Shown here: positions 21,850-39,668 of the stretch, in pieces
How positions within the stretch are numbered: the first letter of the stretch is position 1
How the letters are laid out: every line of letters starts with the position of its first letter
Notes under the pieces: model-generated
Seen by the model: only the letters and a program-made list of their open reading frames with translations
The model's database searches: none
What the model was told of the DNA's origin: nothing
Origin: Rhodovibrio salinarum DSM 9154
GTDB taxonomy: Bacteria > Pseudomonadota > Alphaproteobacteria > Kiloniellales > Rhodovibrionaceae
Direction: 5' to 3'
DNA length: 64,000 nt
Assembly: GCF_000515255.1 (NCBI RefSeq)
Contig: NZ_KI911559.1
Coordinates: forward strand, 344,149 to 408,148
Translations under genes and position numbers: made by a program

Positions 21850-21865
21850 TGTTTCACGTTAAACA
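21850..21865. promoter_or_regulatory. parS-like site upstream of lutA
   Basis: TGTTTCACGTTAAACA matches the 16-bp parS palindrome consensus at 15 of 16 positions. It lies between lutA and mltA, about 17 kb from parAB, on the far side of the proposed oriC. It could be an outlying ParB-binding site or chance. Confidence 0.5.
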
Positions 21866-21919
21866 CCGGGGGGGGCGTAGCGGGGCGGCACCGCGAGCCC
21901 CCATTGGCGTGGTCCGGCG

Positions 21920-23137
21920 CTAACTCTCCGCCCGCCGCGCGGCCACGCTCTCCGGCAACAGCAGGTAATAGCGTCCGCGCTGCTTCATCCGGCCGGCCTT
22001 GGCCAGCGCCGGCTCGCCGGAGCCCCAGAAGAAGTCCCCGCGGACCGGCCCCTTGATCGCGCTGCCAATGTCCTGAGCCACCATCAGCCGCTGCAGCGGC
22101 TGCTTGCTGACCGGGTGCGTGGTGTCCAGGAACACCGGCGCCCCCAGCGGCATGAACGCGGGATCGACCGCGAGCGAGCGTTCGGGCGTGAGCGGCACCC
22201 CCTGGGCGCCGATCGGGCCGGGGGCGTCGACCTTGCGGAAGAAGATGAAGCGCGGGTTCTTGCGCATCAGCGCCTCGGCCTTGTCGGGATGCGCGCGCAG
22301 CCAGTCGCGGATGCCCTGCATCGACATATCCTGGCCCTCCATCTCGCCCGAGCGGATCAGCGCGCGGCCGATGGCGAAGAAATCATGGCCGTTGTTGGCC
22401 GCGTAGCCGACGCGCTGTGTCGTGCCGTCGGGCAGCTTGACCACGCCGGAGCCCTGGACATGCAGGAAGAAGACGTCGACCGGGTCGTCGGCGTAGAACA
22501 AGGGCAAGCCGTTGCGCTTCCGGAACGCACCGTCCCAGATCTCCGCCCGGGTGTAGTAGGGAACCAGGCGCTGATCCGCGACCCGGCCGACGATCCGGGT
22601 CGGCTTCAGATCGGCGCGGAACTTGGCGATGTCGGCGGTAATCAGATCATCCGGCTTGGCATAGATCGGGTGCTGGTAAGGTCCGCGCTGTTCCCGCGCG
22701 GCGTCCAGGCTGGCCTCGTAATAGCCGGTAAACAGCCCCTCGGGTCCGTCCGCACCCTCCGCGGCGAAGGGAACGAAGTGGCGTTCCAAGACCGCGCGGA
22801 CGGCCGTGCTGTCGTGCGCGGAGACATCGTCGAGCGCTGCGCAGGGCGCCTGCCAGTCGGCCACGGTGCCGGCACGCCCCTCCGGCCCCACCGGCGCGTC
22901 GTCCGAGCGCTGCAACAGTTTGTCGCAGGAACGCTTCAGCGCGGGCAGGGCCGCGGCCATGCGGTCGTCCTGCCAACCGGGCAGGTCGGCGAAGGTGACC
23001 CGGGCGAGCAGCAACCGCTGCGCAGTCGCTTTTTCCGGGGCTTCCTTGGGCGCTTCACCACAGGCCGCAAGCGTGGCGGCACATAATACGAGCGCGGCCG
23101 TGGTTCGGACCGCGCTCGTTAAAAGCTGGAGTCGCAT
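21920..23137 (-). CDS. mltA: Membrane-bound lytic murein transglycosylase A
   Basis: A lipoprotein that cleaves peptidoglycan glycan strands to 1,6-anhydro products at the inner face of the outer membrane. The signal has a lipobox (TLAAC, about residue 26). The MltA domain shows FTGYYEASLD near residue 140, and the C-terminal 3D-type segment has VAQDIGSAIKGPVRGDFFWG with conserved Asp residues. Length 405. It follows the Tim44-domain gene by 45 nt, the order usual in alphaproteobacteria. Confidence 0.94.
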   Translation of the reverse strand: MRLQLLTSAVRTTAALVLCAATLAACGEAPKEAPEKATAQRLLLARVTFADLPGWQDDRMAAALPALKRSCDKLLQRSDDAPVGPEGRAGTVADWQAPCAALDDVSAHDSTAVRAVLERHFVPFAAEGADGPEGLFTGYYEASLDAAREQRGPYQHPIYAKPDDLITADIAKFRADLKPTRIVGRVADQRLVPYYTRAEIWDGAFRKRNGLPLFYADDPVDVFFLHVQGSGVVKLPDGTTQRVGYAANNGHDFFAIGRALIRSGEMEGQDMSMQGIRDWLRAHPDKAEALMRKNPRFIFFRKVDAPGPIGAQGVPLTPERSLAVDPAFMPLGAPVFLDTTHPVSKQPLQRLMVAQDIGSAIKGPVRGDFFWGSGEPALAKAGRMKQRGRYYLLLPESVAARRAES

Positions 23138-23182
23138 GATCTTAAGACGTCCCGTCGCCGCTGTCCTCGACGGGGACGCAGC

Positions 23183-23902
23183 CTACTCCGGACTGCGGGT
23201 GGCGACCAGGGTCCAGTTCGGGTCGCGGGACCGGGTGTTGCGCGCGAAAGTCCAGATATCTGTCACATCCAGGACCTGTTCGACGTCACCGTCGACCACG
23301 TTGCCTTCGGCATCCTTGAGGATGTTGATCTGCTCGGAGACGAACTTGACCGTCACGAAGGCCGTACGGTTCTGCAGCTCGGCCTCGATGATCTCCGCCT
23401 CGCGGATGTTGACCAGCGTGGTTTCGAGCGTCTGCCCGGCCTGCTCGCGTTCGTCCAGCGCCTGCTCGAAGTCGCCGTATACATCGTTGGCGAGCAGTTG
23501 GCGCAGCGTCTTGCGGTCGCCCTCGGCGTAGGCGTTGACCACCATCTCGAAGGCGCCCCGCGCGCCCTGGACGAAGCCGTCCTCGTCGAAGTCGCGGTCG
23601 GCCAGCTTGATCTGCGTCAGGCCAGCGGACAGCGGCGTTTCCGCCTTGTCGGCAGCTTTCTTCAGCTCCTCGTCGGTCACGCCGGCATCTTCGTTGCGTC
23701 CGGGCATCGGCACGACCTTGTCACGGTCGGCGCCGTTGTTGCCCTGCTGTTGCTGACGCTGCTGCGAGGATTGGAACGGGTCCTGGCCCGGCCGGTTCTC
23801 ATGGCCGGTGCGCTTGCCCAGTACGCTGCGCAGACGCAGCACGAGGAACGCCGCGATCGCGGCGAACAGGATGATGTCGAAAAACTGGAAGCCTTCACCC
23901 AT
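23183..23902 (-). CDS. Tim44/TimA-domain membrane protein
   Basis: A 239-residue protein: one N-terminal membrane helix (FDIILFAAIAAFLVLRL, about 8-24), a Gln/Asn-rich linker and a C-terminal Tim44-like domain (FVQGARGAFEMVVNAYAEGD onward). Homologues in alphaproteobacteria (TimA) are inner-membrane proteins related to the mitochondrial import factor Tim44; their bacterial role is unsettled. It is upstream of mltA on the same strand and divergent from fxsA. Confidence 0.9.
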   Translation of the reverse strand: MGEGFQFFDIILFAAIAAFLVLRLRSVLGKRTGHENRPGQDPFQSSQQRQQQQGNNGADRDKVVPMPGRNEDAGVTDEELKKAADKAETPLSAGLTQIKLADRDFDEDGFVQGARGAFEMVVNAYAEGDRKTLRQLLANDVYGDFEQALDEREQAGQTLETTLVNIREAEIIEAELQNRTAFVTVKFVSEQINILKDAEGNVVDGDVEQVLDVTDIWTFARNTRSRDPNWTLVATRSPE

Positions 23903-24026
23903 GAAAGCAGGCCTATGTCCTGGCGTTGGTGCGGTCGACCCGGCGACCGGCTCACGCCGAAGTGTCAGGCGTCCGCCTCGACGACGACAAGCCGCATCGG
24001 CACGTGGTTGTCACTCGCGTCACACT

Positions 24027-24059
24027 CGGTTCCGGAGGCATGTCGAAGGCCCGGAACCG
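24027..24059. other. Inverted repeat between the Tim44 gene and fxsA
   Basis: CGGTTCCGG (24027-24035) and CCGGAACCG (24051-24059) form a perfect 9-bp dyad with a 15-nt spacer in the divergent 277-nt gap. It could be an operator or a transcript hairpin; nothing else in this gap is recognisable. Confidence 0.4.
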
Positions 24060-24179
24060 CCCGGCGACGCGGGCTTGCGGTGATGCGTCTTGCGCGCGCA
24101 TTCGAGACAACCCGGATCCGCCCGCTTGCGCATTGCCTCCGTCCTCAACACATAGGAGTTAAGCTGCGAAAGGGCAAGT

Positions 24180-24713
24180 ATGGGTCTCCTTCTCCTCATC
24201 CTCTTCATCGCCGTGCCGATCATCGAAATCGCCGTCCTGATCCAGGTCGGCGGGGTGATCGGCCTGTGGCCGACCTTGGGCCTCGTCATCCTCACCGCGA
24301 TCGTCGGCTCGATGGAGCTGCGCGCGCAGGGACTGGCAACGGTCAACAAGCTGCGCCAACAGCTCGACCAGGGGCAAATTCCCACTCAGACGCTGTTCGA
24401 CGGCGTGTGTCTGCTGTTCGCCGGCGCGTTGCTGCTCACCCCCGGGTTCGTCACCGACATCACCGGTATGCTGCTGTTCCTGGCACCCTTCCGCCGGTTC
24501 CTGCTGAAGGTCATCGGGCCTTACGTGCGCCGGCATGCGGAAGCGCGGGTCTATACCCAGCACAGCGGTCATCCAGGTGCCGGCGGGCCGTTCGGCAGGG
24601 GCTCCAGAGCGGACGACGGGGTGATCGATGCGGATTACCAGGACGTCACCCGCGAGGGCCGCGACGACGGTGCGGACGACGACCGCGACCCGAACAATCG
24701 GCTGCGCCACTGA
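24180..24713 (+). CDS. fxsA: FxsA-family cytoplasmic membrane protein
   Basis: A 177-residue inner-membrane protein: N-terminal helix (LLLLILFIAVPIIEIAVLIQ), a second helix (LWPTLGLVILTAIVG), QTLFDGVCLLFAGALLLTPGF and a C-terminal LLFLAPFRR. The last ~60 residues are polar and acidic. FxsA in E. coli alleviates F-plasmid exclusion of phage T7; the normal role is unknown. AAGGGC lies upstream of the ATG. It is followed after 254 nt by secB, in which I see no further gene or clear element. Confidence 0.92.
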   Translation: MGLLLLILFIAVPIIEIAVLIQVGGVIGLWPTLGLVILTAIVGSMELRAQGLATVNKLRQQLDQGQIPTQTLFDGVCLLFAGALLLTPGFVTDITGMLLFLAPFRRFLLKVIGPYVRRHAEARVYTQHSGHPGAGGPFGRGSRADDGVIDADYQDVTREGRDDGADDDRDPNNRLRH

Positions 24714-24967
24714 GTGTTCTGGCTGCCGATCCTGGGCCACTGGTGTCGGGCTGCTGATCTCGGGCTGATGGTTTTGGACCACCGGTCTCGGGGCGTCCGG
24801 TTGTGAGCCCAGGACGTTCGTGCTAGCCAACGCCCGGTTCGCGCAGCCGACAGCGTATCCGGCGCGATTGGCGGCTGCAGCCTTTTACGCCGCAGCGGTC
24901 CGCATGCAGGGTCCGCGGCAACTGGGCGATCCCTTTTCACAGACCCCCGATCCAGCAGGCGAGAAAC

Positions 24968-25477
24968 ATGGCACAGGACGACGGCAATCAGGGCGCACAG
25001 CAGCAGCCCGAGCAGCGCGGCATCACGATCCACACGCAGTACGTGAAGGACCTGTCGTTCGAGAACCCGAACGCTCCGCAGGTCTACGTCAATATGAAGG
25101 AAAGCCCGAGCGCGCAGGTCGCGATCGACGTTCAGGGCATCCGGCTGCAGGAAAACACCTACGAGGTGGTGCTGAATGCCGAGATAAAGGCGACCGTGCA
25201 GGATCAGACCGCCTTCGTCATCGAGCTCAAATACGGCGGGCTGGTCACGCTGTCGGGCGAAATCTCCGACGAGCAGCGCGAGACCGTCCTTCTGATCGAG
25301 GTGCCGCGCTACCTCTTCCCGTTCGCGCGCAACGTCATTTCCGACGCGACCCGCGAAGGCGGCTTCCCGCCGCTGCTGATCAACCCGGTGGACTTCACGC
25401 GCCTCTACCGCGATCAGAAGGCCCGTCAGACCGACGCGACCCAACAGCAGGCCAACGGTAACGGCCAACAGGCCTAA
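24968..25477 (+). CDS. secB: Protein-export chaperone SecB
   Basis: A tetrameric cytosolic chaperone that holds pre-proteins unfolded and delivers them to SecA. The 169-residue sequence shows SFENPNAP and the signature FPFARNVISDATREGGFPPL near residue 130, with a Gln/Asn-rich C-terminal tail. It is followed by a strong intrinsic terminator at 25508-25545. Confidence 0.97.
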   Translation: MAQDDGNQGAQQQPEQRGITIHTQYVKDLSFENPNAPQVYVNMKESPSAQVAIDVQGIRLQENTYEVVLNAEIKATVQDQTAFVIELKYGGLVTLSGEISDEQRETVLLIEVPRYLFPFARNVISDATREGGFPPLLINPVDFTRLYRDQKARQTDATQQQANGNGQQA

Positions 25478-25507
25478 CCCATCCGTCTTTGACCACGGAA
25501 ATCAGAA

Positions 25508-25545
25508 ACGCCGGGCTGCGCCGTACGGCAAGCCCGGCGTTTTTT
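25508..25545. terminator. Intrinsic terminator between secB and dnaQ
   Basis: ACGCCGGGCT (25508-25517) pairs with AGCCCGGCGT (25531-25540) and is followed on the plus strand by six Ts. It ends the secB transcript. The minus-strand exit has a weaker T-rich stretch, so it may also serve dnaQ. Confidence 0.92.
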
Positions 25546-25559
25546 CGTGAACGGATCAG

Positions 25560-26246
25560 CTACTGCTGCCAGAGCGGGTTCGAGAGTTTGGCGAGCATCG
25601 CCTGATGGGCCTGCTCTTCGGCCTCGGACGGGGCGTGTGGGCGAGGCTCGCGGGGAGTGCGTTCGCGCTTGACGAACTGCGGGCCCGAACTCGTGCCTTG
25701 TGTCCGGCCAGACTCACTCGCAAGCGCGAGACCCGGCTGACGGCCGCCACGCAGTTCCAGGTAGACCTCGGCCAGGAGCTGACAGTCCAACAGCGCGCCG
25801 TGAAAGTCACGCGCGCTGTTGTCGATCTCGAAGCGCTTGCAAAGCGCATCCAGGTTGACCTGCGCGCCGGGGAAGCGCTTGCGCGCCATCTCCACCGTAT
25901 CGACGCTGTCGTTGGTCAGGCGCGGCCGGCCGGTCCACTCCAGTTCGGCATTCAGGAAGCCGAGGTCGAACTTGGCATTGTGGATCACCAGGCGCGCGTC
26001 TTGGATGAAGTCCAGAAACGTCTGCGCCTGCTCGGCGAAGGTCGGAAATGTCTTCAGGTAATCCAGGCCAAGGCCGTGGACGCGGTAGGCCTCTTCCGGG
26101 ACCTCGCGCTCGGGGTTGATGTAGAGCTGCTGGGTTTCGCCGGTGGCCACGTGGTTGATCAGCTCCACGCCCGCGATCTCGACGATGCGATGCCCGGCCT
26201 GCGGATCCAGGCCGGTCGTTTCCGTATCCAGAACGATTTCACGCAC
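25560..26246 (-). CDS. dnaQ: DNA polymerase III epsilon subunit (3'-5' proofreading exonuclease)
   Basis: The proofreading subunit of the replicative polymerase. Exonuclease motif I is LDTETTGLDP (residues 6-15), motif II HNAKFDLGFLNAE and motif III HGALLDCQLLAEVY with its His and Asp. Downstream RQPGLALAS resembles a beta-clamp-binding peptide. Length 228. It overlaps coaE by 8 nt. Confidence 0.95.
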   Translation of the reverse strand: MREIVLDTETTGLDPQAGHRIVEIAGVELINHVATGETQQLYINPEREVPEEAYRVHGLGLDYLKTFPTFAEQAQTFLDFIQDARLVIHNAKFDLGFLNAELEWTGRPRLTNDSVDTVEMARKRFPGAQVNLDALCKRFEIDNSARDFHGALLDCQLLAEVYLELRGGRQPGLALASESGRTQGTSSGPQFVKRERTPREPRPHAPSEAEEQAHQAMLAKLSNPLWQQ

Positions 26247-26916
26247 TTGGCCGCCGCCTCCCAGATCGTGGGCTCTTGGGTGGATTGTCCCACAATATTT
26301 TGACGATTCGGCGCAACGTCCGCAAGGTGTGCAACCGTCCCAATCCGGTTTGCACGATGAAGTCGGCGCGCTTGCGTTTAACCTGATCCGGTAGTTGCTG
26401 GGCGCGGATCGCCGCCAGTTTGTCCCGGCTCATGCCGGGGCGGGTCAGAACCCGCGCCTCCTGGACAAACCGCGGGGCGGAAACGACCGCGACCGCGTCG
26501 CACAGCCGCTCCCCACCGGTCTCGAACAACAGCGGGATATCCAGAACGACTAAGCTATCGCCGCGGTATCGCCTGGCCTCGATGAAGCGATGCGCCTCGT
26601 GGCGGACCTTGGGATGCAAAATCGCTTCCAGGCGCTTGAGCGCATGCGCGTCCTGGAACACCCTCGCGCCGAGCGCCCGCCGGTCAACCGCCCCCTCGAC
26701 CACCGCTTCCGGGAAGGCCGCAGCGATTTCCGGGACCGCGCGCCCCCCCGGCGCCATCAGCCGGTGCACAGCAGCGTCGGCATCGTGCACGGCCAGACCC
26801 ATCGCCCGCAGCATGCTGGCGGCCGTCGACTTGCCCATACCGATCGACCCGGTCAGCCCAAGGACGACCGGCCGCCGGCGCAGGGCACGTGGGCTAGTCC
26901 TGCAACACGAAGTCAC
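26239..26916 (-). CDS. coaE: Dephospho-CoA kinase
   Basis: The last step of coenzyme A synthesis, phosphorylating dephospho-CoA at the 3'-OH. The P-loop is GLTGSIGMGKSTAASML; VLDIPLLFETGG and LTRPGMSRDKLAAI follow. No ATG fits the N-terminus. I propose a GTG at 26916 with GGAG 7 nt upstream; it overlaps the end of aroE by 23 nt and adds about 15 residues before the usual start. A start closer to the P-loop, at a rare codon, cannot be excluded. Confidence 0.92.
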   Translation of the reverse strand: MTSCCRTSPRALRRRPVVLGLTGSIGMGKSTAASMLRAMGLAVHDADAAVHRLMAPGGRAVPEIAAAFPEAVVEGAVDRRALGARVFQDAHALKRLEAILHPKVRHEAHRFIEARRYRGDSLVVLDIPLLFETGGERLCDAVAVVSAPRFVQEARVLTRPGMSRDKLAAIRAQQLPDQVKRKRADFIVQTGLGRLHTLRTLRRIVKILWDNPPKSPRSGRRRPSA

Positions 26917-27730
26917 GCAACGTCTCCGTGACTTCCGGGCGCACGCCGAACCAGGCCGCGAACCCCGGCACGGCCTGGTGCAGCAGCATGCCAATCCCGT
27001 CCACCACCGGATTGCCGCGCGCCCGGGCCCGGGCCAACAGGTCTGTCTCCAGCGGTTGATAGACGATGTCGTTGACCAGGGCGTGCGGGGGCAGAGGGGT
27101 GAGATCGATCTCTAGCGCACCATGGCCGATCATGCCCAGGCTGGTGGTGTTGACCAGCAGGTTGGCGCCCTCGAGCGCCGCCGTCTTCTCGTCCCAATCG
27201 ATCACGGTCACCGGACCGTCCAACTGAGCGGCCAACGTGTCCGCCTTGGTTCGGGTACGGTTCGCGAGGCGAATTTCGGGCACGCCAGCGTCGGCTAACG
27301 CAATCACGACCGCCCGCGCCGCGCCGCCGGCGCCGAGCACGACCGCAGGACCCGCTGCAGGGCCCCAATTGGGGGCGCGCTGGTACAGGTTGTTCAGGAA
27401 GCCAACGCCGTCCGTGTTCCGCCCCTCGATGGTTGGGCCATCGAACACCAGCGTGTTGACAGCCCCCAGCCGACGGGCATGGTCGTCCAACCGGTCGCAG
27501 GCCGCGAGCACGCCCTGTTTGTGCGGGACGGTGACGTTGGCCCCCATGAACCCCAGTCGGGGCAGGGCACGCACACAGTCCACTAGGTCTTCCGGCGCAG
27601 TCGGCAGCGGCACATAGGCACCGTCGATGGCATGCTGATCCAGCCAGTAGCCGTGCAGACGCGGCGAGCGGGAGTGTGCCACCGGCCAACCGAGCACACC
27701 TGCCAGTCGGCTTCGACCCGTGAGAATCAT
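26894..27730 (-). CDS. aroE: Shikimate dehydrogenase
   Basis: NADPH-dependent reduction of 3-dehydroshikimate to shikimate in aromatic amino-acid synthesis. The shikimate-binding GWPVAHSRSPRLHGYWL is at the N-terminus, the catalytic Lys in NVTVPHKQGVL, and the NADP glycine motif VVLGAGGAARAVVIAL in the middle. 278 residues from the ATG at 27730; an in-frame TTG at 27778 would add 16 residues. It is one of a maf-aroE-coaE-dnaQ set running away from oriC. Confidence 0.95.
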   Translation of the reverse strand: MILTGRSRLAGVLGWPVAHSRSPRLHGYWLDQHAIDGAYVPLPTAPEDLVDCVRALPRLGFMGANVTVPHKQGVLAACDRLDDHARRLGAVNTLVFDGPTIEGRNTDGVGFLNNLYQRAPNWGPAAGPAVVLGAGGAARAVVIALADAGVPEIRLANRTRTKADTLAAQLDGPVTVIDWDEKTAALEGANLLVNTTSLGMIGHGALEIDLTPLPPHALVNDIVYQPLETDLLARARARGNPVVDGIGMLLHQAVPGFAAWFGVRPEVTETLRDFVLQD

Positions 27731-27822
27731 AAGGTGGTCGAGCTCCAAATCCGGAAGGAGAAATTCAGATGTGAGCAAACATCCGTTGACGCAGATCGGA
27801 ACGCGAACCTGCCGATGCCAGC

Positions 27823-28434
27823 TCAGTTCGGCAATACGCGGTGTTCGCGCAGGAAAGCCATCAGCGGCAGCAGGGGGAGGCCAAGGACGGTGAAATAGTC
27901 ACCTTCCACCCGGCTGAACAGCTGCGCCCCGACACCTTCAAGCTGATAGGCTCCGACGCTGTCGTAAACGGCGTCACCGACTTTATCCAGATAGTCCTGA
28001 ATGAAGTCCTCGCTGAGCGAGCGAACGGTAAGACGGGCACTGTCGCTTTGATGCCAAATCCGACCCCCATCCTTTACCACGACGGCGCAGGCGATCAGGC
28101 GATGCGTCTTGCCCGAGAGGAGACGCAGCGTTTCTGCGGCCTGCTCCCGGTTCTGTGGTTTGTCGAGCCAGGTGCCATCGATATCCAGCATCTGATCGGC
28201 AGCCATGACCAAGCAACCGCCGTGTCGGCTGGCGACGCGGTGCGCCTTCATTTCAGCCAGCGCCTCGGCGACGTCGTCGACCCCGGCGCCATCGGCGCGA
28301 AACGCGGCCTTGACCTCATCCTCATCGACGCCAGGGCGGTCAGTTAGGTGTACCGGGACGCCAGCGGCTTCCAGCATGCGCCGGCGGGTCGGACTCTGCG
28401 AAGCCAGGACGAATGGCGGGACGTCGTCGGTCAT
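27823..28434 (-). CDS. maf: Maf-family nucleotide pyrophosphatase
   Basis: A 203-residue Maf/Ham1-related enzyme that hydrolyses non-canonical or canonical nucleoside triphosphates. Visible motifs are VLASQSPTRRRMLEAAG (SxSxRR), VMAADQMLDIDG where many relatives have an ADT-type sequence, KPQNREQAAETL, and YQLEGVGAQLF. The start overlaps the ppsR stop by 4 nt (ATGA), so it is translationally coupled to it. Confidence 0.92.
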   Translation of the reverse strand: MTDDVPPFVLASQSPTRRRMLEAAGVPVHLTDRPGVDEDEVKAAFRADGAGVDDVAEALAEMKAHRVASRHGGCLVMAADQMLDIDGTWLDKPQNREQAAETLRLLSGKTHRLIACAVVVKDGGRIWHQSDSARLTVRSLSEDFIQDYLDKVGDAVYDSVGAYQLEGVGAQLFSRVEGDYFTVLGLPLLPLMAFLREHRVLPN

Positions 28435-29255
28435 CCAGCCTCCTGCGCGCGGTGGCGGCTGTAGTAGGTCATGATGGTCGCGGCCGTTTCCTCAATCGAA
28501 CGGCGGGTGACATCGATGCTTGGCCAGCCCTTCCGAGCGAACAGACGCCGGGCCTCCTGTACCTCGTCGCGGACTTTCTCGGGATCGACGTAATCGGTGT
28601 GGCCAGCGTGTTCGTCCAGCATGTTGAGACGCTGCCGGCGCACCTGAACCAAGCTCTGCGGCTCCTTGGTCAGGCCGATGACGAGCGGGCCGTCAATCCG
28701 GAACAGGTCCTGGGGCAGGGGGATCCCAGGAACGTAGGGAATGTTCGCCGCCTTGATCCCCCGGTTGGCCAGATAGATGCAGGTCGGCGTTTTCGAGGTT
28801 CGCGAAACTCCGACCAGAATGACATCGGCATCCTTCAACTGGGCCGTCGATTGCCCGTCGTCGTGGCTCAGGGTGTAATTCATCGCTTCGATGCGCTCGA
28901 AGTACTCCGTGTCCATGACGTGCTGCAGCCCCGGCTTGCCGGAGATCGGCAGTCCGAAATAGGCGGCGAGCGCGTGGATCACACCGTCCAAAACCGGGAT
29001 CGTCGGAATGCCGAGTTCGCGGGTTTCCTCGACCAGCTTCGTGCGCAGATCCTCATTGACCAGGGTGAACAGCACCGGCCCGGGATATTTCTGAATCCCC
29101 GCGATGACGCGATCCATCTGACTGCGCGTCCGAACCAGCGACCAAACGTGCTCGACCGGCTCGATCCCCGAGAACTGCACGAGACAGGCACGGGTCACTG
29201 AACTGATCGTCTCGCCAGTCGCATCGGAGACGAGGTGCAGGTGATAGCTGGTCAT
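28431..29255 (-). CDS. ppsR: Pyruvate, phosphate dikinase / PEP synthase regulatory protein (RP001 / UPF0085 family)
   Basis: A bifunctional Ser/Thr kinase and pyrophosphorylase that switches PEP synthase or PPDK. The N-terminus HLHLVSDATGETISSV and the P-loop-like VGVSRTSKTPTCIYLANRG (about residues 155-173) are diagnostic, with the C-terminal kinase-like WPSIDVTRRSIEETA. 274 residues from the ATG at 29255 with GGGGAG upstream. It flanks the proposed oriC, the position held by its homologue RP001 in Rickettsia. Confidence 0.93.
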   Translation of the reverse strand: MTSYHLHLVSDATGETISSVTRACLVQFSGIEPVEHVWSLVRTRSQMDRVIAGIQKYPGPVLFTLVNEDLRTKLVEETRELGIPTIPVLDGVIHALAAYFGLPISGKPGLQHVMDTEYFERIEAMNYTLSHDDGQSTAQLKDADVILVGVSRTSKTPTCIYLANRGIKAANIPYVPGIPLPQDLFRIDGPLVIGLTKEPQSLVQVRRQRLNMLDEHAGHTDYVDPEKVRDEVQEARRLFARKGWPSIDVTRRSIEETAATIMTYYSRHRAQEAG

Positions 29256-29314
29256 ATCTCCCCAAAACGCTGATCGTTCAAAGCGCGCAGCCAAACCCTG
29301 CTACGCCGGCTGCG

Positions 29315-29323
29315 TTATGCACA
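29315..29323 (+). promoter_or_regulatory. DnaA box
   Basis: TTATGCACA fits the relaxed DnaA consensus TTWTNCACA at all positions. It lies at the ppsR end of the candidate origin. Confidence 0.6.
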
Positions 29324-29489
29324 GACGTCCGTCTGCGCCTGTTGATGATCCGGGAGGACTCCAAGCTCACCGCATGGCAAGAGAATTCCACACAGGCTCG
29401 CCCGAAATCCATGAGTCGGGTTGTCCGCAAAGCCTACTTGAGCTCCACAGGCTGGGAAAACTGGTATGCGACCATCGTCGCTGACAAGG

Positions 29490-29507
29490 TTATCCACGTT
29501 TTCCACA
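29490..29507 (+). promoter_or_regulatory. Pair of adjacent DnaA boxes
   Basis: TTATCCACG (29490-29498, one mismatch) is followed directly by TTTTCCACA (29499-29507, full match to TTWTNCACA), both on the plus strand with no spacer. Head-to-tail boxes favour cooperative DnaA binding. Confidence 0.65.
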
Positions 29508-29570
29508 ACCCCTCGGTGGATAGATCGACTCGGCACGGGTCGGACGAGTCAACGCAGGTACGCATGCGAG

Positions 29571-29579
29571 TCTTGCACA
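29571..29579 (+). promoter_or_regulatory. Weak DnaA box
   Basis: TCTTGCACA matches TTWTNCACA at 8 of 9 positions. It lies between the boxed core and the 29624-29650 dyad. Confidence 0.4.
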
Positions 29580-29687
29580 TCAATGCAGCTTGCCCGCACA
29601 ACCCATATTCAGTGTCCGGACAGCCTGGGGACAAACATTTGATCCCCAGGTTCCACCGGCCAGCAACCACAACCGACTCTCTTAAAT

Positions 29688-29705
29688 AAACTCTTCCCAG
29701 AGTTT
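29688..29705 (+). promoter_or_regulatory. Hairpin just upstream of the hemE ribosome-binding site
   Basis: AAACTCT (29688-29694) and AGAGTTT (29699-29705) form a perfect 7-bp dyad with a TCCC loop, ending 2 nt before the AAGGAC Shine-Dalgarno of hemE. It is also in the most AT-rich stretch of the candidate oriC. It may be a translation-control hairpin or part of an unwinding element. Confidence 0.4.
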
Positions 29706-29717
29706 GAAGGACAGGAC

Positions 29718-30791
29718 ATGGCCATCGACCACGCCTCCAGGCGACCCGCCGCGACGGGCAAGCCCCTCCTCGACACCTTGAATGGTCATCAGCAGGATGT
29801 GCCGCCAATCTGGCTGATGCGACAGGCAGGCCGGTACCTGCCGGAATATCGGGAAATCCGGGCAACAGCCGAGGGGTTCCTCGACCTCTGCTTCACGCCC
29901 GAAAAGGCGATCGAGGTTACGCTGCAGCCGATCCGCCGGTATCAGATGGATGGCGCGATTTTGTTCTCCGACATCCTGGTGATCCCCTACGCACTGGGGC
30001 AGAAGCTCTGGTTCACCGAAGGCGTCGGGCCGCAGCTGGAAGCGCTTGAGAACCCGGCCGATGCCGCACAGCGCCTATCGATCGAAGGCATGCACGACAC
30101 GCTGGCCCCGGTGTACGAGACCTTGGCAGGCGTGAAGGCGAAACTGCCGAAGGAAACGACCCTGCTTGGCTTCGCCGGCGCGCCCTGGACGGTCGGCTCG
30201 TACATGATCGAGGGCGGCTCCTCGCGCGATTTCTTCAAGGCCAAGCAGTGGATGTTCCAGCAGCCGGAGGCTTTCCAGGCGCTGATCGATCTATTGGTCG
30301 AAGCCACGGCCGACTATCTCTGCGCACAGATCGATGCCGGGGCGGATGCCGTTCAGCTGTTCGATTCCTGGGCCGCCAGCCTGGCACCGGATGATGTGAT
30401 GCGCTGGTCCCTCAAGCCGCTGCAGCAGATCGTGCAGAAGGTGAAGGCGCGTCATCCCAACACCCCGGTGATCGTGTTCCCGCGCGGGGTTGGCCCGATC
30501 TACGCGACCTTCGCCGAACAGGGCATTGGCGATGCGCTTGGACTCGACACCGGGCTGCCAGCGGCTTGGGCACGCGAGCATCTTCAAGACAAGGTCGCGG
30601 TCCAAGGCAATCTGGACCCGCTACGCGTTGTCGCAGGCGGGGAGGGGATGCGCCAGGCGACCCGCGAGCTGCTGGATACGCTCGCCGGCGGGCGATACAT
30701 CTTCAACCTGGGTCATGGCGTAGTGCCGCAAACCCCACCCGAGCACGTCGGTGAGTTGGTGGAACTTGTCCGCAGCCACGGCCGGCGTTAG
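29718..30791 (+). CDS. hemE: Uroporphyrinogen decarboxylase
   Basis: Removes four acetate carboxyl groups of uroporphyrinogen III to give coproporphyrinogen III in heme synthesis. Family signatures are PPIWLMRQAGRYLPEYRE near the N-terminus and GFAGAPWTVGSYMIEG in the middle, with VQLFDSWAASL. Length 357. AAGGACAGGAC precedes the ATG. First rightward gene after the proposed origin; hemH, which follows hemE in many relatives, is absent and hemJ comes next. Confidence 0.97.
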   Translation: MAIDHASRRPAATGKPLLDTLNGHQQDVPPIWLMRQAGRYLPEYREIRATAEGFLDLCFTPEKAIEVTLQPIRRYQMDGAILFSDILVIPYALGQKLWFTEGVGPQLEALENPADAAQRLSIEGMHDTLAPVYETLAGVKAKLPKETTLLGFAGAPWTVGSYMIEGGSSRDFFKAKQWMFQQPEAFQALIDLLVEATADYLCAQIDAGADAVQLFDSWAASLAPDDVMRWSLKPLQQIVQKVKARHPNTPVIVFPRGVGPIYATFAEQGIGDALGLDTGLPAAWAREHLQDKVAVQGNLDPLRVVAGGEGMRQATRELLDTLAGGRYIFNLGHGVVPQTPPEHVGELVELVRSHGRR

Positions 30792-30848
30792 GCGGGATGT
30801 GATATCTCCGGCCGTGCGGTCGGCGCATGGCCGGATGAGAGTCTGCGG

Positions 30849-30864
30849 TGTTGCACGTGAAACA
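30849..30864. promoter_or_regulatory. parS-like site between hemE and hemJ
   Basis: TGTTGCACGTGAAACA matches the parS consensus at 15 of 16 positions (G for T at position 5). It lies 1.1 kb from the candidate oriC. Confidence 0.55.
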
Positions 30865-30909
30865 TTCCGGTCCGGCAACAGTCGGCCGTAAAACTAAAGA
30901 GGGGATCGC

Positions 30910-31353
30910 ATGACCGGATTTCTGGGTCAGGCGTACATCTGGTTCCTGATTATCCACATCCTGTCGATCATCACCTGGATGGCGGGCCTGTTCTATCTGC
31001 CCCGCTTGTTTGTCTATCACGCGCAAGCGAACGCCACGGGCGAGCCGGCAGAGACCTTCAAGGTCATGGAACGCCGGTTGCTCAAGGCGATCATGAACCC
31101 GTCAATGATCATCGCTTGGGTGTTTGGGATCGCGCTGGCACTCCATATCGGCGCGTTCGCCCAAGGGTGGTTTCATGTCAAGTTGCTGCTGGTGATCGTC
31201 ATGAGCGCGCTACATATGGCGATGGGCAAGTGGCGCAAGGACTTCGAGGCCAACCAGAACAAGCATGGCCACAAGTTCTACCGGGTGATCAACGAGATCC
31301 CGACCGCCATCCTGGTCGTGATCGTGATTCTGGTGAAGCTGAAGCCGTTCTGA
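30910..31353 (+). CDS. hemJ: Protoporphyrinogen IX oxidase HemJ
   Basis: A 147-residue membrane enzyme that converts protoporphyrinogen IX to protoporphyrin IX in organisms lacking HemG/HemY. It has about four hydrophobic helices. A conserved His lies in the first helix (FLIIHILSIITWMAGLFYLPRLFVYH), and KWRKDFEANQNKH, YRVINEIPT and VILVKLKPF follow. GAGGGG lies upstream of the ATG. The pairing with hemE fits a heme operon. Confidence 0.93.
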   Translation: MTGFLGQAYIWFLIIHILSIITWMAGLFYLPRLFVYHAQANATGEPAETFKVMERRLLKAIMNPSMIIAWVFGIALALHIGAFAQGWFHVKLLLVIVMSALHMAMGKWRKDFEANQNKHGHKFYRVINEIPTAILVVIVILVKLKPF

Positions 31354-31820
31354 TTCTTCTCCCTGACGGTAGCGAGCCGGGGCAGGTGGTTTGCGGCGCG
31401 AATGCTGTGCGATTTCCATCTCCCCGGACCTCGCGCTCTCAGGAGAAGCACCGGCGGCCACCCGTCTTTGCGAGACTGCGGGCGATGTTGTTATGCCTGT
31501 ATTATATCGCTAGCGTACACCTGAAACGCGTATCGCGCTGTCACTTGACTTTGCGTCGCGACACGATTAGCTAGCATGGTAGGCGCCCTCCTGTCCTCTC
31601 GAGGCGCCGGACATCATTTTCCAGCAAGCGCTTTTCTCTCCGACGCATCTGGTGGATTCGATCCGCTTGCCGCGCTCATGACCATCCCTGGTCACGCGCG
31701 TTGGCAACAACCGGCTCACTCCGCCTAACTCGTCGGGAGACCGCGGCTCACGGGACTTGTGCCGCGTGCCCTGTCCCTGCGCCTTCCTCCGCCGCTCAGC
31801 CTGACCACCACGAAGTCGAC
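31354..31820 (+). promoter_or_regulatory. Long leader of rho, with a weak promoter candidate
   Basis: The 467-nt gap between hemJ and the rho start codon has no convincing gene. A TTGACT at 31545-31550 with a 17-nt spacer and TAGCTA at 31568-31573 is a weak sigma-70-type promoter candidate, which would leave a leader of about 240 nt. The leader is pyrimidine-rich and C-rich near the start (31720-31815). C-rich, weakly structured leaders are what Rho binds, and rho genes elsewhere are autoregulated by Rho within the leader. An in-frame TTG at 31701 would extend the protein by 40 atypical residues and is rejected. Confidence 0.5.
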
Positions 31821-33077
31821 ATGCATCTTCAAGACCTCAAGGACAAATCGCCCCAGGACCTACTGGCCTACGCCGAGGAACTGGACATCGACAACGCGAG
31901 TTCGCTGCGCAAGCAGGACATGATGTTCGCCATCCTGAAGGAGTTGGCGGACCAGGATGTGGTGATCCAAGGGGGTGGCGTCCTCGAGGTGATGCCGGAC
32001 GGCTTTGGGTTCCTCCGCTCGCCGGAAGCGAACTATCTGGCCGGGCCAGACGACATTTATGTCTCGCCGAGCCAGGTGAAGCGCTATCAGCTGCGTACCG
32101 GCGATACGGTCGATGGCCAGATTCGCGCACCGCGGAAGGGCGAGCGGTACTTCGCCCTCAGTCGCGTTGAGAAGGTGAATTTCGAAGATCCGGAGCGGCT
32201 GCGCCACCGGATCAACTTCGATAATCTCACCCCGCTGTACCCGGATCAGAAGATCCAACTGGAACTGCCGGATCCGTCGCGGAAGGACCTGACCCCGCGG
32301 GTGATCGACCTGGTCGCGCCGCTCGGCAAGGGCCAGCGCGCGCTGATCGTGTCGCCGCCGCGTACCGGCAAGACGATGATCCTGCAGAACCTTGCCCGGT
32401 CGTTCGAGCAGAACCACCCGGAATGCTATCTGATCGTGCTGTTGATCGATGAGCGGCCGGAAGAGGTCACCGACATGGACCGGACGGTGAACGGCGAGGT
32501 GATCTCCTCGACCTTCGACGAGCCGGCGCAGCGCCACGTCCAGGTGACCGAAATGGTGCTGGAGAAGGCGAAGCGTTTGGTCGAAGGCGGCAAGGACGTG
32601 GTCGTCCTGCTGGACTCGATCACCCGTCTGGCCCGTGCCTACAACACCACTGTGCCATCGTCCGGCAAGGTGCTGACCGGCGGTGTCGACGCCAACGCCC
32701 TGCAGCGGCCCAAGCGTTTCTTCGGCGCGGCCCGCAACATCGAGGAAGGCGGTTCCCTGACCATTATCGGTACCGCGTTGGTCGATACCGGCAGCCGGAT
32801 GGACGAGGTGATCTTCGAGGAGTTCAAGGGCACCGGTAACTGCGAGATCGTGCTCGACCGCAAGCTGGCGGACAAGCGGACCTTCCCGGCGATCGACGCT
32901 GCCAAGTCCGGGACGCGGAAGGAAGAGCTGCTGGTCGACCAAAACACGCTGTCACGGATGTGGGTGCTGCGTCGGATCCTCAATCCGATGGGCACGACGG
33001 ACGCTATGGAATTCCTGACCGACAAGCTTCGCCGGACCAAGGACAACGCTGAATTCTTCGCCAGCATGAACCAGTGA
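31821..33077 (+). CDS. rho: Transcription termination factor Rho
   Basis: A homohexameric RNA-dependent ATPase. The N-terminal domain begins [20 protein letters not shown], the RNA-binding OSB region has [14 protein letters not shown] (RNP1-like) near residue 55, and the P-loop PPRTGKT is at about 179-185. The [10 protein letters not shown] and [12 protein letters not shown] segments are conserved. Length 418 from the ATG at 31821. A parS-like sequence and a hairpin follow. Confidence 0.98.
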
Positions 33078-33081
33078 CCGC

Positions 33082-33097
33082 CGTTTCACGGGAAACG
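33082..33097. promoter_or_regulatory. parS-like site after rho
   Basis: CGTTTCACGGGAAACG has 13 of 14 core parS positions (G replaces T in the centre). It lies 5 nt after the rho stop. Confidence 0.55.
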
Positions 33098-33122
33098 TTC
33101 CCATAAAGACGGTTTGATCGGA

Positions 33123-33155
33123 TTGAGGCGCGATCCACCTGGGATCGCGCCTCAA
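33123..33155 (+). terminator. Hairpin downstream of rho
   Basis: TTGAGGCGCGATCC (33123-33136) pairs perfectly with GGATCGCGCCTCAA (33142-33155) around a 5-nt loop. The stem is long and GC-rich, but no T-tract follows; it lies between rho and the convergent oxidoreductase gene. Confidence 0.6.
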
Positions 33156-33203
33156 ACGTTTCCGCGAATGCTGCTTCCCTTCCCAGAGGAGAGAGGGCAG
33201 GGG

Positions 33204-34184
33204 TTATTCCGGTAGCAGGATGGTTGAACCCGTCGTCTTACGCGCTTCCAGATCCTTGTGCGCCCGAGCGGCGTCCTGCAACGGGTAGGTCTGGTTCACC
33301 TCGATCTTCACGTCGCCGTCCAGGACCTTTTCGAACAGCGCGTTGGCGCTCTCGGTGAGGTCCTTTCGCGTCGCGGTGTAGTCCATCAAAGTCGGGCGGG
33401 TCAGGAACAAGGAGCCACGCTTGGCGAGCTCGCCCGGATTGAACTGGCTGACCACGCCGGATGCATTGCCGAAGCTGACCAGCATGCCGCGGCGCGCAAG
33501 CGAGGACAGCGAGGCTTCCCAGGTCGCCTGACCGACGCCGTCGTAGACCACCGGAACGCCGCGGCCATCGGTGAGTTCCTTGACGCGTTCGCCGACGTCT
33601 TCCTGGTTATAGAAGATCGTGTGATGGCAGCCGTGGGCCTTGGCCAGTTCGGCTTTGGCTTCGCTGCCGACAGTGCCGATTACGGTCGCCCCGATCGCGT
33701 GCAGCCATTGGCAGGCGATCAGACCGACCCCGCCGGCGGCGGCGTGGAACAGAACGGTCATTCCCTTTTTCACGGGAAAGGTTCGGCGCACGAGATACTC
33801 GACCGTCATACCCTGCAGCATCATCGCTGCGGCTGTTTGTGTATCGATGCTCTCGGGCAGGCGAACCAGCCGGTCGGCGGGCATGTTGCGGACTGCTTGG
33901 TAGGCGCCCAGCGGCGGGGAGGCATAGGCAACCCGATCGCCGATCCGAAGATCGCTGACGCCGTCGCCCAGCGCCTCGACCACGCCCGCGCCTTCGAGGC
34001 CGATCGGTGCGGGAAGTTGGGGAACGGGATAGAGTCCGGTGCGATGGTACACATCGATGTAGTTGAGGCCGATCGCCTCCTGGCGTAGCCGAACTTCGCC
34101 AGCGGCGGGATTGGGGACCTCCACCTCTTCGGGGGTCAGCACATCAGGGCCGCCGTGTTCATGGATGCGCACGGACAGGGTCAT
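33204..34184 (-). CDS. NADPH:quinone oxidoreductase (QOR/crystallin-zeta type)
   Basis: A 326-residue zinc-free MDR enzyme: NYIDVYHRTGLYP, GLEGAGVVEALGDGV and the NADPH site FHAAAGGVGLIACQWL. This combination is typical of E. coli QorA. It should reduce quinones by one electron from NADPH. It is the only convincing gene on the minus strand between oriC and holA, convergent with rho, so it is opposed to the fork. I chose the ATG at 34184 for the standard N-terminus. Confidence 0.92.
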   Translation of the reverse strand: MTLSVRIHEHGGPDVLTPEEVEVPNPAAGEVRLRQEAIGLNYIDVYHRTGLYPVPQLPAPIGLEGAGVVEALGDGVSDLRIGDRVAYASPPLGAYQAVRNMPADRLVRLPESIDTQTAAAMMLQGMTVEYLVRRTFPVKKGMTVLFHAAAGGVGLIACQWLHAIGATVIGTVGSEAKAELAKAHGCHHTIFYNQEDVGERVKELTDGRGVPVVYDGVGQATWEASLSSLARRGMLVSFGNASGVVSQFNPGELAKRGSLFLTRPTLMDYTATRKDLTESANALFEKVLDGDVKIEVNQTYPLQDAARAHKDLEARKTTGSTILLPE

Positions 34185-34388
34185 GAGCGTGGTGCCTTTT
34201 TTAGTTCCGTTGAGCCGCCCAGCAGCCGTTACCAGCGTGGACGGCGGGCACGAAGGGTAATCCCGTTGCGGTAAAGCTGTCACGGCCTGCCGATCTCATC
34301 CGACTGACACGGCCTAGCCCCAGCCGGGGCGATGCGATATATCGCCGAGTACCTGCGCCACCCCTTAAGCCGTTGTAAGGCTGCCTGC

Positions 34389-34736
34389 ATGACCGATCCC
34401 GAGTCCTATTTCACCTGCCACATTTTCTGTTGCGAGAATCAGCGCCCGCCGGGTCATGAACGTGGCTGTTGCAAGGAGAAGGATGCCACACGGCTGCGCA
34501 ATTATCTGAAAGCCCGGGTGAAGGAGTTGGGAGTCCCGGGCGTGCGGGTGAACTCGGCTGGCTGCCTGGATCGCTGTGAGCTGGGACCGGTCATGGTCAT
34601 CTACCCGGACGGCGTTTGGTACCACTACCGCACGTTGGAAGACGCGGAAGAGATCCTGCAGCGGCATATCGTGGAAGGAGGGCGCGTGCCGCGGTTGATG
34701 CTGCAGCCTGGCGATCAGACACCGCCGGTGGGGTAG
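34389..34736 (+). CDS. Thioredoxin-like [2Fe-2S] ferredoxin domain protein
   Basis: A 115-residue protein of the (2Fe-2S) ferredoxin, thioredoxin-fold family. Cysteine pairs are TCHIFCCENQ and RGCCKEKD near the N-terminus, and SAGCLDRCELGPVMVIYPDGVWY carries the C-x3-C pair and conserved YPDG. The partner is unknown. The ATG at 34389 has AAGG upstream. It sits 43 nt before mnmE on the same strand. Confidence 0.85.
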   Translation: MTDPESYFTCHIFCCENQRPPGHERGCCKEKDATRLRNYLKARVKELGVPGVRVNSAGCLDRCELGPVMVIYPDGVWYHYRTLEDAEEILQRHIVEGGRVPRLMLQPGDQTPPVG

Positions 34737-34763
34737 GGAACGTGGCGATCTGCGTCATCGAAA

Positions 34764-34779
34764 TGTTCCACGTGAAACA
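34764..34779. promoter_or_regulatory. parS-like site abutting the mnmE start codon
   Basis: TGTTCCACGTGAAACA matches the parS consensus at 15 of 16 positions (C for T at position 5). It ends at the base before the mnmE ATG and so occupies the place of the ribosome-binding region. Confidence 0.7.
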
Positions 34780-36117
34780 ATGACGGCTCGGACGATCTTC
34801 GCGCTTTCCACGGCGCCTGGGCGGGCCGGCGTGGCGGTGATCCGGATTTCCGGTCCCGATGCTGCGGCCGTGCTCAAGGCTCTGGCTGGCGATCTGCCGG
34901 CGCCGCGCCATGCCGTCCTGCGCACCTTGACGGATACCGAAAAGGAGCCGATCGATCGCAGCCTCGTACTGTGGTTCCCCGGGCCGAAATCCTTCACCGG
35001 CGAGGACCTGGCGGAACTGCACGTTCATGGCGGCCGCGCGATCATCCAAATGCTGACGGATGTGCTTGCTGCACAACAGGGTTTGCGCCCGGCAGAGGCG
35101 GGAGAGTTCACGCGTCGGGCGTTCGACGCCGGAAAGCTCGACCTGACGGAGGTCGAAGGACTCGCCGATCTGATCGATGCGGAGACGCGCGCCCAAGCCC
35201 GACAGGCATTACGCCAGATGGAGGGCGCGCTGGGCCAGCGCATCACCGATTGGCGGGACCGATTACTTCGCGCGCGTGCACACATGGAAGCCGCGATCGA
35301 TTTCGCCGACGAGGAGCTGCCGGAAGGGCTGGACGCGGAAGTTCGTGTGCAGATTATGCAGTTGGCTGGCGAAATCGATGCCACCTTGCAGGATGCCGCA
35401 CGGGGCGAACGACTGCGTGAGGGTCTGACGGTGGCTATCGTGGGGGCGCCGAACGCCGGCAAGTCTTCGCTGCTCAACGCCGTGGCGGCGCGCGACGCCG
35501 CGATTGTGGCGGAGACGGCGGGCACCACGCGGGACATTGTGGAAGTGCACCTGGATCTGGGCGGCTATCCGGTCACGCTTGCCGATACGGCCGGCCTGCG
35601 CGCGCTTGACCCTGCGGATGCCGATCCAATCGAGGCGGAAGGCATCCGCCGCGCCCGCGCCAAGGCCGAGCAGGCGGATCTGCGCCTGGTGGTGTTCGAC
35701 GCGACCCAGGGCATTGATGCGGCCACCGCGGATTTATTGAACGATGACAGCTTGATCGCCTGGAACAAGCAGGATTTGCCGGGTGGAACTCCCCCAGTGG
35801 AGGTGGCTAGTCGGCCGGTTTATCCGGTGTCGGCCCGGACTCACGCGGGTCTTCCGGAATTGCTGGATCGGCTGCAAGCCAAGGTGACGGAGCAATTAGG
35901 CGTTGCAGGTGCTGCGCCGGCGATTACACGGGCCCGCCACCGCAGTGCGCTGCAAGCTGCCTCCGAGGCTTTGGATCGGGCAGGTTCGGCGGATGCCGCC
36001 GAACTGGCAGCTGAAGACCTGCGCTATGCCACGCACGCCCTTGGCCGCGTGACCGGCGAGGTCGACGTCGAAGACCTGCTCGACGTGATCTTTCGGGACT
36101 TCTGCATCGGGAAGTGA
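34780..36117 (+). CDS. mnmE: tRNA modification GTPase MnmE
   Basis: With MnmG, forms the complex that puts the cmnm5 group on the wobble uridine of several tRNAs. The formyl-THF-binding N-terminal domain begins MTARTIFALSTAPGRAGVAV. The G domain lies in the middle: P-loop GAPNAGKS (222-229), DTAGLR and NKQDL. The C-terminal FCIGK (441-445) supplies the conserved Cys. No clear Shine-Dalgarno: the parS-like site occupies the bases just upstream. Confidence 0.97.
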   Translation: MTARTIFALSTAPGRAGVAVIRISGPDAAAVLKALAGDLPAPRHAVLRTLTDTEKEPIDRSLVLWFPGPKSFTGEDLAELHVHGGRAIIQMLTDVLAAQQGLRPAEAGEFTRRAFDAGKLDLTEVEGLADLIDAETRAQARQALRQMEGALGQRITDWRDRLLRARAHMEAAIDFADEELPEGLDAEVRVQIMQLAGEIDATLQDAARGERLREGLTVAIVGAPNAGKSSLLNAVAARDAAIVAETAGTTRDIVEVHLDLGGYPVTLADTAGLRALDPADADPIEAEGIRRARAKAEQADLRLVVFDATQGIDAATADLLNDDSLIAWNKQDLPGGTPPVEVASRPVYPVSARTHAGLPELLDRLQAKVTEQLGVAGAAPAITRARHRSALQAASEALDRAGSADAAELAAEDLRYATHALGRVTGEVDVEDLLDVIFRDFCIGK

Positions 36118-36134
36118 GCAGCTTGGCAAGGCCC

Positions 36135-36150
36135 CGTTTCATATGAAACA
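36135..36150. promoter_or_regulatory. Degenerate parS-like palindrome between mnmE and mnmG
   Basis: CGTTTCATATGAAACA keeps GTTTCA and TGAAAC but has TA in place of the central CG. It lies 18 nt after mnmE. The two central differences make ParB binding doubtful. Confidence 0.35.
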
Positions 36151-36192
36151 CGGCACTTTGACTTGGGCCCAGGGCTAAGCCATAACCCGGGT

Positions 36193-38076
36193 ATGGTGCA
36201 GGAAACGCAATACGATGTGATCGTGGTGGGCGGTGGCCACGCCGGCTGTGAAGCGGCCGCCGCTGCCGCTCGGCTGGGTGCCCGGACGCTGTTGATCACG
36301 CATAAGATGAGCACGATCGGTGCAATGTCCTGCAATCCCGCGATCGGCGGGCTCGGCAAAGGGCATCTTGTGCGCGAGATCGATGCTCTCGACGGTATCA
36401 TGGGCCGGGCGGCGGACGCTGCCGGCATCCAGTTCCGGGTACTCAACCGGTCGAAAGGTCCCGCGGTCCGCGGTCCGCGGTGCCAAGCGGATCGCAAGCT
36501 TTATCGCGAGGCCGTGCAGGAACTGCTGGCTGAGCTCGAGACGCTGGAGATTCTGGAGCAGCCGGTCGAGGACCTAACGCTGGATGACGCGGGACGCTGC
36601 ACCGGCGCGGTGACAGCGGATGGGACCGAGATTGCCGCCGGACGGGTCGTGCTGACGACCGGGACGTTCCTACGCGGGATGATCCACTTGGGCGAGGAGC
36701 GTATCCCCGCAGGCCGGGTGGGCGACGAGCCGGCCGTTGGCTTGGCCGCAACGCTGGAGCGTGCGGGTTTCCAACTCGGCCGTCTGAAGACCGGCACCCC
36801 GCCGCGTCTGGACGGGCGTACGATCGACTGGTCCGCCACTGCGTCACAGCCTGGTGACGATCCGCCGGAACCTTTCTCGGCCCTGACTGACCGGATCACG
36901 ACGCCGCAAATTGCTTGCCATATCACCACAACGACGCCAGCTGGCCACGCGCTGATCCGCGAGAATCTGCATCGTGCGCCGATGTATAGCGGGCAGATCG
37001 ACAGTACCGGGCCGCGGTATTGCCCGTCGATCGAAGACAAGGTGGTGCGGTTCGCCGACAAGGGAGGCCACCAGATCTTTCTTGAGCCCGAGGGCTTGGA
37101 CGACGACACCGTCTATCCGAACGGCATCTCGACCTCGCTGCCCCGTGAGGTGCAAGCCGACCTGATCAAGACCATTCCGGGCCTGGAACAAGCCGTCATC
37201 ACCCAGCCGGGCTATGCGATCGAGTACGATTACGTCGATCCGCGGGAACTCCAGGCCTGCCTGGAAACCCGCCGGATTCCGGGCCTTTTTCTGGCCGGGC
37301 AGATCAACGGTACCACTGGCTACGAGGAAGCCGGGGCCCAAGGGTTGATCGCCGGGGCCAACGCCGCCCTTCAAGCCGGCGGGACGCAGATGCCGTTCCT
37401 GGTCGACCGCACGGAAGGGTATATCGGGGTGCTGGTCGACGACCTGACCACGCGGGGTGTGAGCGAACCGTATCGGATGTTCACCAGCCGGGCGGAATAT
37501 CGCCTGCGTCTGCGTGCTGACAACGCGGACGAGCGCTTGACCGACAAAGGCGCCGCGACGGGATTGGTGGGATCGGGACGCCATGCGGTCTGGCAGGCGA
37601 AGGCTGCGCGGTTACAGGAAGGTCGTGCGCGACTGCAGGAGTTGAACGCGACGCCGGCTGACCTGGCCAAGGCTGGGTTTCACGTGAAACAAGATGGCGT
37701 GCGCCGGAGCGCGTGGGATCTCCTACGCGGTGGTGACGCGAGCCTGGTGCGGGTGGCGCAGTATTGGCCCGAATTGGCGGCTTATGAAGACGATGTGGCG
37801 CAACGCCTCGAAGTCGATGCGCGCTATGATGCGTATCTGGCACGCCAGGAGCAGGACGTTGCTGCGTTCCGCCGGGATGAACAGCTCGCGCTTCCAGCGG
37901 ACTTGGATTATGACAAGGTGCCGAGCTTGACGACCGAGGTCCGCGAGAAGCTCGCGACGGCCCGACCGGCGACGCTGGGGCAGGCGGCACGCATTCCCGG
38001 GATTACACCCGCAGCGCTGATCGCGCTTTTGACCTACGTTCGGCGGCATCATGACCGGCCGCGCGATGCCGCATGA
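36193..38076 (+). CDS. mnmG: tRNA uridine 5-carboxymethylaminomethyl modification enzyme MnmG (GidA)
   Basis: The FAD/NADH-dependent partner of MnmE. The FAD motif [12 protein letters not shown] is near residue 12, and [24 protein letters not shown] and [14 protein letters not shown] are diagnostic. Length 627 residues from the ATG at 36193; a TTG ten codons earlier is possible. The codons for AGFHVKQDG (37676-37691) contain a perfect-core parS. The stop overlaps the rsmG start by 4 nt. Confidence 0.97.
37676..37691. promoter_or_regulatory. parS site inside mnmG
   Basis: GGTTTCACGTGAAACA contains the complete 14-bp parS core GTTTCACGTGAAAC. It falls in codons for GFHVKQ near the C-terminal third of MnmG, about 1 kb from parA. 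Confidence 0.8.
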
Positions 38077-39549: not shown

Positions 39550-39668
39550 GCGCCGCGAAAGCCTTACCGTCTCGCCTCAGGCCGCGAAAGTCTCTACCCA
39601 TGCCGCCTGCCGCCGCCAACCGAAAGCCCGCGACGTCCGAGTCCGGTACCGAGGACGATACTGCCCAG

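Follow-up and report, generated by a model that had tools for sequence, protein, structure and literature searches.

The 64,000-nucleotide stretch analysed here (the window) comprises bases 344,149-408,148 of the single 4,176,524-bp contig that makes up the 4.18-Mb chromosome of Rhodovibrio salinarum DSM 9154. It contains a gene-free segment between the divergent ppsR and hemE genes, which raises the question of whether this segment is the origin of chromosome replication (oriC) and which part of it is opened by DnaA. Judged from its sequence, the ppsR-hemE gap (29256-29717) is oriC of this single-contig alphaproteobacterial chromosome, with a probability of about 0.96. The site itself is already known: the experimentally mapped Caulobacter origin has the same neighbours, hemE and CC0001/COG1806, and this location is textbook knowledge for the alphaproteobacteria (PMC1914354). 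What this analysis adds is a conserved core within the gap, the independence of that core from hemE, and its non-canonical triplets.

29256-29717, no strand: probable oriC, the whole ppsR-hemE intergenic segment (skew minimum, top DnaA-box window, syntenic gap in relatives)
28431-29255, minus strand: ppsR (COG1806/DUF299, the RP001-type gene), left boundary, transcribed away from the segment (NCBIfam NF003742, 326.8 bits)
29718-30791, plus strand: hemE, right boundary, transcribed away from the segment (TIGR01464, 414.9 bits)

The segment had been proposed as oriC in a first-pass annotation made from the letters alone. Its coordinates proved to be exact, 462 nt lying between the leftward ppsR ATG at 29255 and the hemE ATG at 29718, and transcription runs outward on both sides as described there, with ppsR, maf, aroE, coaE and dnaQ read leftward and hemE, hemJ and rho rightward. 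The proposal is now supported by the skew minimum, a core kept in relatives, the clustering of parS sites, gene order and the DnaA boxes. That annotation had listed neither the core at 29626-29709 nor the six GANTC sites, nor the six strong parS sites flanking the segment. The position, the boxes, the unstable DNA, the conserved core, the skew and the parS sites were all computed here.

Cumulative GC skew, named as a check on the proposal, reached its minimum over a continuous 264 kb at a point 60 nt from the segment. The best change-point in the same 264 kb was at 30001, with an approximate 95% set of 29501-34001. Of the 20-kb samples taken every ~104 kb around the genome, all those before the window except one, at 3.76 Mb, had negative skew; those after it were positive up to a second reversal between 2.51 and 2.61 Mb. 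Close to this reversal was a dif-like site (contig 2,563,154-2,563,175; two mismatches to the degenerate pattern). These terminus signals fit a near-symmetrical chromosome, since the antipode of the segment lies at ~2,462 kb. The whole genome contained six parS matches with no more than two mismatches, all of them at window 21850-38467 and within 9 kb of the segment.

29777, no strand: cumulative GC-skew minimum (264-kb scan)
21850-21865, no strand: parS TGTTTCACGTTAAACA (genome-wide motif match, as for the next five)
30849-30864, no strand: parS TGTTGCACGTGAAACA, between hemE and hemJ
34764-34779, no strand: parS TGTTCCACGTGAAACA, before mnmE
37676-37691, no strand: parS GGTTTCACGTGAAACA
38132-38147, no strand: parS CGTTTCACGTGAAACG
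38452-38467, no strand: parS CGTTTCACGTGAAACG
38704-39549, plus strand: parA-like ATPase gene, start codon uncertain (open reading frame listing, Walker motif by eye)
39600-40580, plus strand: parB-like gene (open reading frame listing, read by eye)

Five GGGNAGGG (KOPS-like) motifs were also observed at window 6635-28713 on the plus strand, opposite to the polarity expected on a left replichore.

The conserved core lies at the hemE end of the segment. It is the most conserved part of the gap, although the first-pass annotation had it merely as an AT-rich end, and it consists of the following elements.

29626-29709, plus strand: conserved oriC core, putative strand-opening module (held-out model match)
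29626-29634, minus strand: inverted weak DnaA box TTGTCCCCA (as read on the minus strand; its position matches the TGTGGATAA-type boxes of relatives, for example L164)
29640-29657, plus strand: weak tandem box pair, TGATCCCCA (two mismatches) and GGTTCCACC (four mismatches), aligned with TAATCCCCG and TGATTCACA of relatives
29658-29661, plus strand: GC cluster GGCC (sequence and alignment)
29664-29672, plus strand: triplet run CAA CCA CAA, DnaA-trio-like with a non-canonical middle base (alignment with relatives)
29680-29709, no strand: presumed DNA unwinding element (nearest-neighbour stability scan)

The AT-rich end that had been noted was confirmed; in the nearest-neighbour scan no 30-mer elsewhere in the 64-kb window was as unstable, and this one directly follows the triplets. 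In the window, an nhmmer profile built without this genome matched 29626-29710 at E 4e-9; among the own-genome stretches that were searched, which were evenly spaced and ~1.06 Mb in total, the runner-up had an E value of 13. An independent, sequence-only covariance model (R1), trained on 29 relatives with this genome left out, gave a single match in the whole genome, at 29626-29709 (E 3.0e-8).

Conservation of the segment between relatives was thereby found for the core, which a model made without this genome placed at one position in 4.18 Mb. In 51 genomes from the order to which this one belongs, ppsR and hemE were likewise divergent and stood 375-886 nt apart. A BLAST comparison of the gap with 38 relatives matched mainly the start of ppsR, and the gap as a whole was not conserved; conservation was confined to short elements, and therefore a profile approach was used. 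Two such elements recurred in the gaps of relatives, namely a central head-to-tail box pair and a stronger element before hemE. In the latter, a TGTGGATAA-type inverted box and two abutting weak boxes, like TAATCCCCG and TGATTCACA, were followed by a GC cluster, a run of C-A/T-A triplets and AT-rich DNA.

A match to the core was present in 158 of the 289 sampled genomes of the class. The best 29 of these matches outside this genome were all located just upstream of hemE and oriented toward it; many of the weaker matches were not checked one by one. At 17 of 20 further loci hemE also adjoined the core, and no hemE was found at the remaining three, where the core lay between maf and hemJ (L257), between rho and ppsR (L265) or between rho and coaE (L268). 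The core therefore follows the divergent junction rather than hemE. In two of four complete relatives, including the hemE-less G210, the skew change-point was at the core or no more than 1.5 kb away (for G210 the approximate set was -23 kb to +2.5 kb around the core), and in all four parS was found 3-29 kb from the core. With the core profile, the putative strand-opening module can be pinpointed by sequence only in many genomes of alphaproteobacteria, including those in which hemE has moved away.

The stronger DnaA boxes are situated farther from hemE, in the rest of the gap.

29315-29323, plus strand: DnaA box TTATGCACA (sequence match)
29490-29507, plus strand: central abutting head-to-tail DnaA-box pair, TTATCCACG (29490) and TTTTCCACA (29499) (sequence match)
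29571-29579, plus strand: very weak DnaA-box-like TCTTGCACA (three mismatches to TTATCCACA)

The boxes reported earlier at 29315, 29490 and 29499 are real, while the one at 29571, with its three mismatches, was not significant alone. There were three matches with no more than one mismatch in the segment, compared to an expectation of 0.08, and none of 500 dinucleotide shuffles reached three. In DnaA-box density, a second check on the proposal, the segment scored top among 20,821 windows of the 1.06-Mb genome sample, in which 29490/29499 was the sole near-consensus abutting head-to-tail pair. Among relatives from the order, 29 of 51 gaps matched two abutting copies of TTATCCNCN on the plus strand in 12 or more of the 14 letters; the minus strand gave 4 of 52, and shuffles reached 11 letters at most. 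The tandem pair had been offered as a feature setting this origin apart from that of Caulobacter; it does not make the origin unusual, since a survey found tandem pairs to be the arrangement that bacterial origins most often have (PMC8287927). The short dyads that had been listed were found as four distinct perfect hairpins (five counted) against 1.4 expected; they are merely suggestive, because 14 of 200 shuffles contained as many. Two separate observations were made on box-associated sequences: a perfect DnaA box, TTATCCACA, occurs within hemJ at 30950-30958, with the 30849 parS site ~100 nt away, and in 20 of the 51 relatives the central pair is followed, at a fixed distance of 14 nt, by YGCAAG, a motif absent in the window.

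The order of elements in the core resembles the basal unwinding system (BUS), in which a box pair is followed by a GC cluster, a period-3 run and unstable DNA (PMC8287927). The similarity to the BUS of Bacillus subtilis and other bacteria (PMC8287927, PMC10721633) extends to the tandem pair, the short GC cluster, the period-3 run and the easily opened DNA; the differences are that the boxes of the pair are weak in this genome and that the triplets are mostly CAA (3'-GTT-5' opposite the boxes) rather than 3'-NAN-5'. With two and four mismatches, respectively, TGATCCCCA and GGTTCCACC at 29640-29657 fall within the limits set for a BUS pair (no more than two and no more than four). The published DnaA-trio rule specifies at least three consecutive 3'-NAN-5' triplets no more than 16 nt from the box (PMC8287927). 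Reading by eye the strand that lies opposite the boxes gave no more than two such triplets in succession, which is short of the canonical rule. The strand used for this reading is that of the B. subtilis layout. At the same place in relatives, in-frame triplets were CAA in 115 cases and CTA in 45.

In B. subtilis the middle base of the trio contacts Asn187, and a thymine at that position slows opening (PMC10721633); trios without a middle adenine had already been anticipated by the survey (PMC8287927). The residue aligned with Asn187 is Tyr421 in the DnaA protein encoded here (dnaA, contig 497,904-498,386). Of 18 other alphaproteobacterial DnaA proteins that were read, 17 also have Tyr here; in family member G002 the residue is Thr. 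Tyr421 is a lead and not a correlation, because Tyr also occurs in lineages with other triplets. As a tentative generalisation, which we regard as rather less probable than its opposite, alphaproteobacterial origins may have in common a single core for strand opening, guided by DnaA and located at the maf/ppsR-hemE/hemJ junction. Its triplet code would have diverged between lineages, with CTN in Caulobacterales, AAG-like triplets in Beijerinckiaceae and CAA/CTA in this order as well as several others. In this order the captured middle base would then be mostly thymine, not adenine, and would be read by a DnaA with Tyr in place of the B. subtilis Asn187. With its non-canonical triplets, this origin offers a direct test of the proposed DnaA-trio code beyond the Firmicutes. 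By lineage, the triplet runs seen near hemE were AAG-like in Beijerinckiaceae, CTN in Caulobacterales and CAA/CTA in this order (gaps L046, L049, L054, L057, L061 and L068-L103).

Binding, opening, strand choice and regulation were inferred from these elements, and a possible course of events can be outlined. Loading of DnaA would take place at 29315 and at the tandem pair 29490/29499, which are the stronger boxes, as well as at the weak pair 29640/29649; from there the protein would extend across the GC cluster onto the triplets at 29664-29672 and capture one strand. The very unstable DNA at 29680-29709, beside hemE, would open, and the helicases would be loaded there. Two forks would travel away from each other until they meet near 2.5-2.6 Mb, and ParB bound to the surrounding parS sites would segregate the newly made origins. 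The weakest part of this proposal is that firing may be modulated by CcrM methylation at the clustered GANTC sites. With the origin fixed, replication direction, replichores and gene dosage follow, in a lineage for which the literature searched contained no mapped origin.

Several results weigh against the assignment of oriC to this gap. The GC skew was weak (about -0.015 and +0.018), the T-A skew had its minimum at 17436, and the polarity of GGGNAGGG showed no clean flip in the 130 kb to the left of the segment. The T-A skew is noisier than the G-C skew, and the origin was placed by the latter. For two of the four complete relatives, G252 and G258, the 200-kb skew was uninformative, with no usable change-point. 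In addition, the boxes of the core carry two and four mismatches in this genome, and its triplet run is short. If the origin lay elsewhere nearby, the conserved block could serve hemE (and ppsR) only as a promoter or leader element, and the DnaA boxes would act in transcription control. The three loci without hemE count against such an element, since the core has stayed at this divergent junction there, with hemJ or rho as its neighbour. Moreover, the skew minimum, the parS cluster and the least stable DNA coincide at the segment, and scans revealed neither an Rfam match nor a sigma-70-like promoter. A pure promoter role is very improbable, because the core follows the junction and because of the skew and parS data.

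An origin at dnaA, with the ppsR-hemE gap as a secondary DnaA-binding locus, would correspond to the commonest bacterial arrangement, in which the origin is linked to dnaA. In this chromosome, however, dnaA (contig 497,904-498,386) is 124 kb from the segment, no strict DnaA box was found between contig 419,579 and 613,815, the region around the gene, and the skew was already positive on both sides of it (samples at 418-438 and 522-542 kb). This location is more improbable still, to the point of being negligible, and the ppsR-hemE gap is retained as oriC.

The gap shares with Caulobacter crescentus Cori (PMC1914354) the two boundary genes and their divergent arrangement, DnaA boxes, an AT-rich stretch, parS within a few kb and the presence of GANTC sites. 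It differs in having no CtrA sites, stronger DnaA boxes, an abutting central pair and CAA-type rather than CTN-type triplets, and the core model scores weakly on Caulobacterales. The predicted origin of Rickettsia prowazekii (hemE-COG1806; PMC1914354) has the same boundary genes and, likewise, a gap of more than 400 nt; it differs from the present one in that there are no CtrA sites here and that this genome is high-GC.

The absence of TTAA-N7-TTAA CtrA sites from the gap, reported earlier as a distinguishing feature, was confirmed even with two mismatches allowed, but it is nothing unusual, an exact site being present in just 1 of 51 relatives from the order. At least one CtrA site was found in 31 of 34 Caulobacterales-type loci. 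An exact-match search of the segment for the IHF consensus WATCAANNNNTTR gave no match; an IHF site is one of several origin elements, not all of which are required (PMC1914354). The remaining candidate regulatory sites are the GANTC sites.

29357-29679, no strand: six GANTC (CcrM) sites, at 29357, 29413, 29527, 29546, 29568 and 29675 (motif count)

From the genome sample, 0.76 such sites were expected in the 462 nt, and a few other places in that sample carry as many as the segment does. This cluster is a modest extension of earlier work, because GANTC sites in the Caulobacter origin and a general excess between genes had already been reported (PMC3973325). A CcrM-type (RAMA-domain) protein is encoded in the genome, and across the 51 origins of the order GANTC was 2.4-fold over expectation, with none of seven control palindromes enriched.
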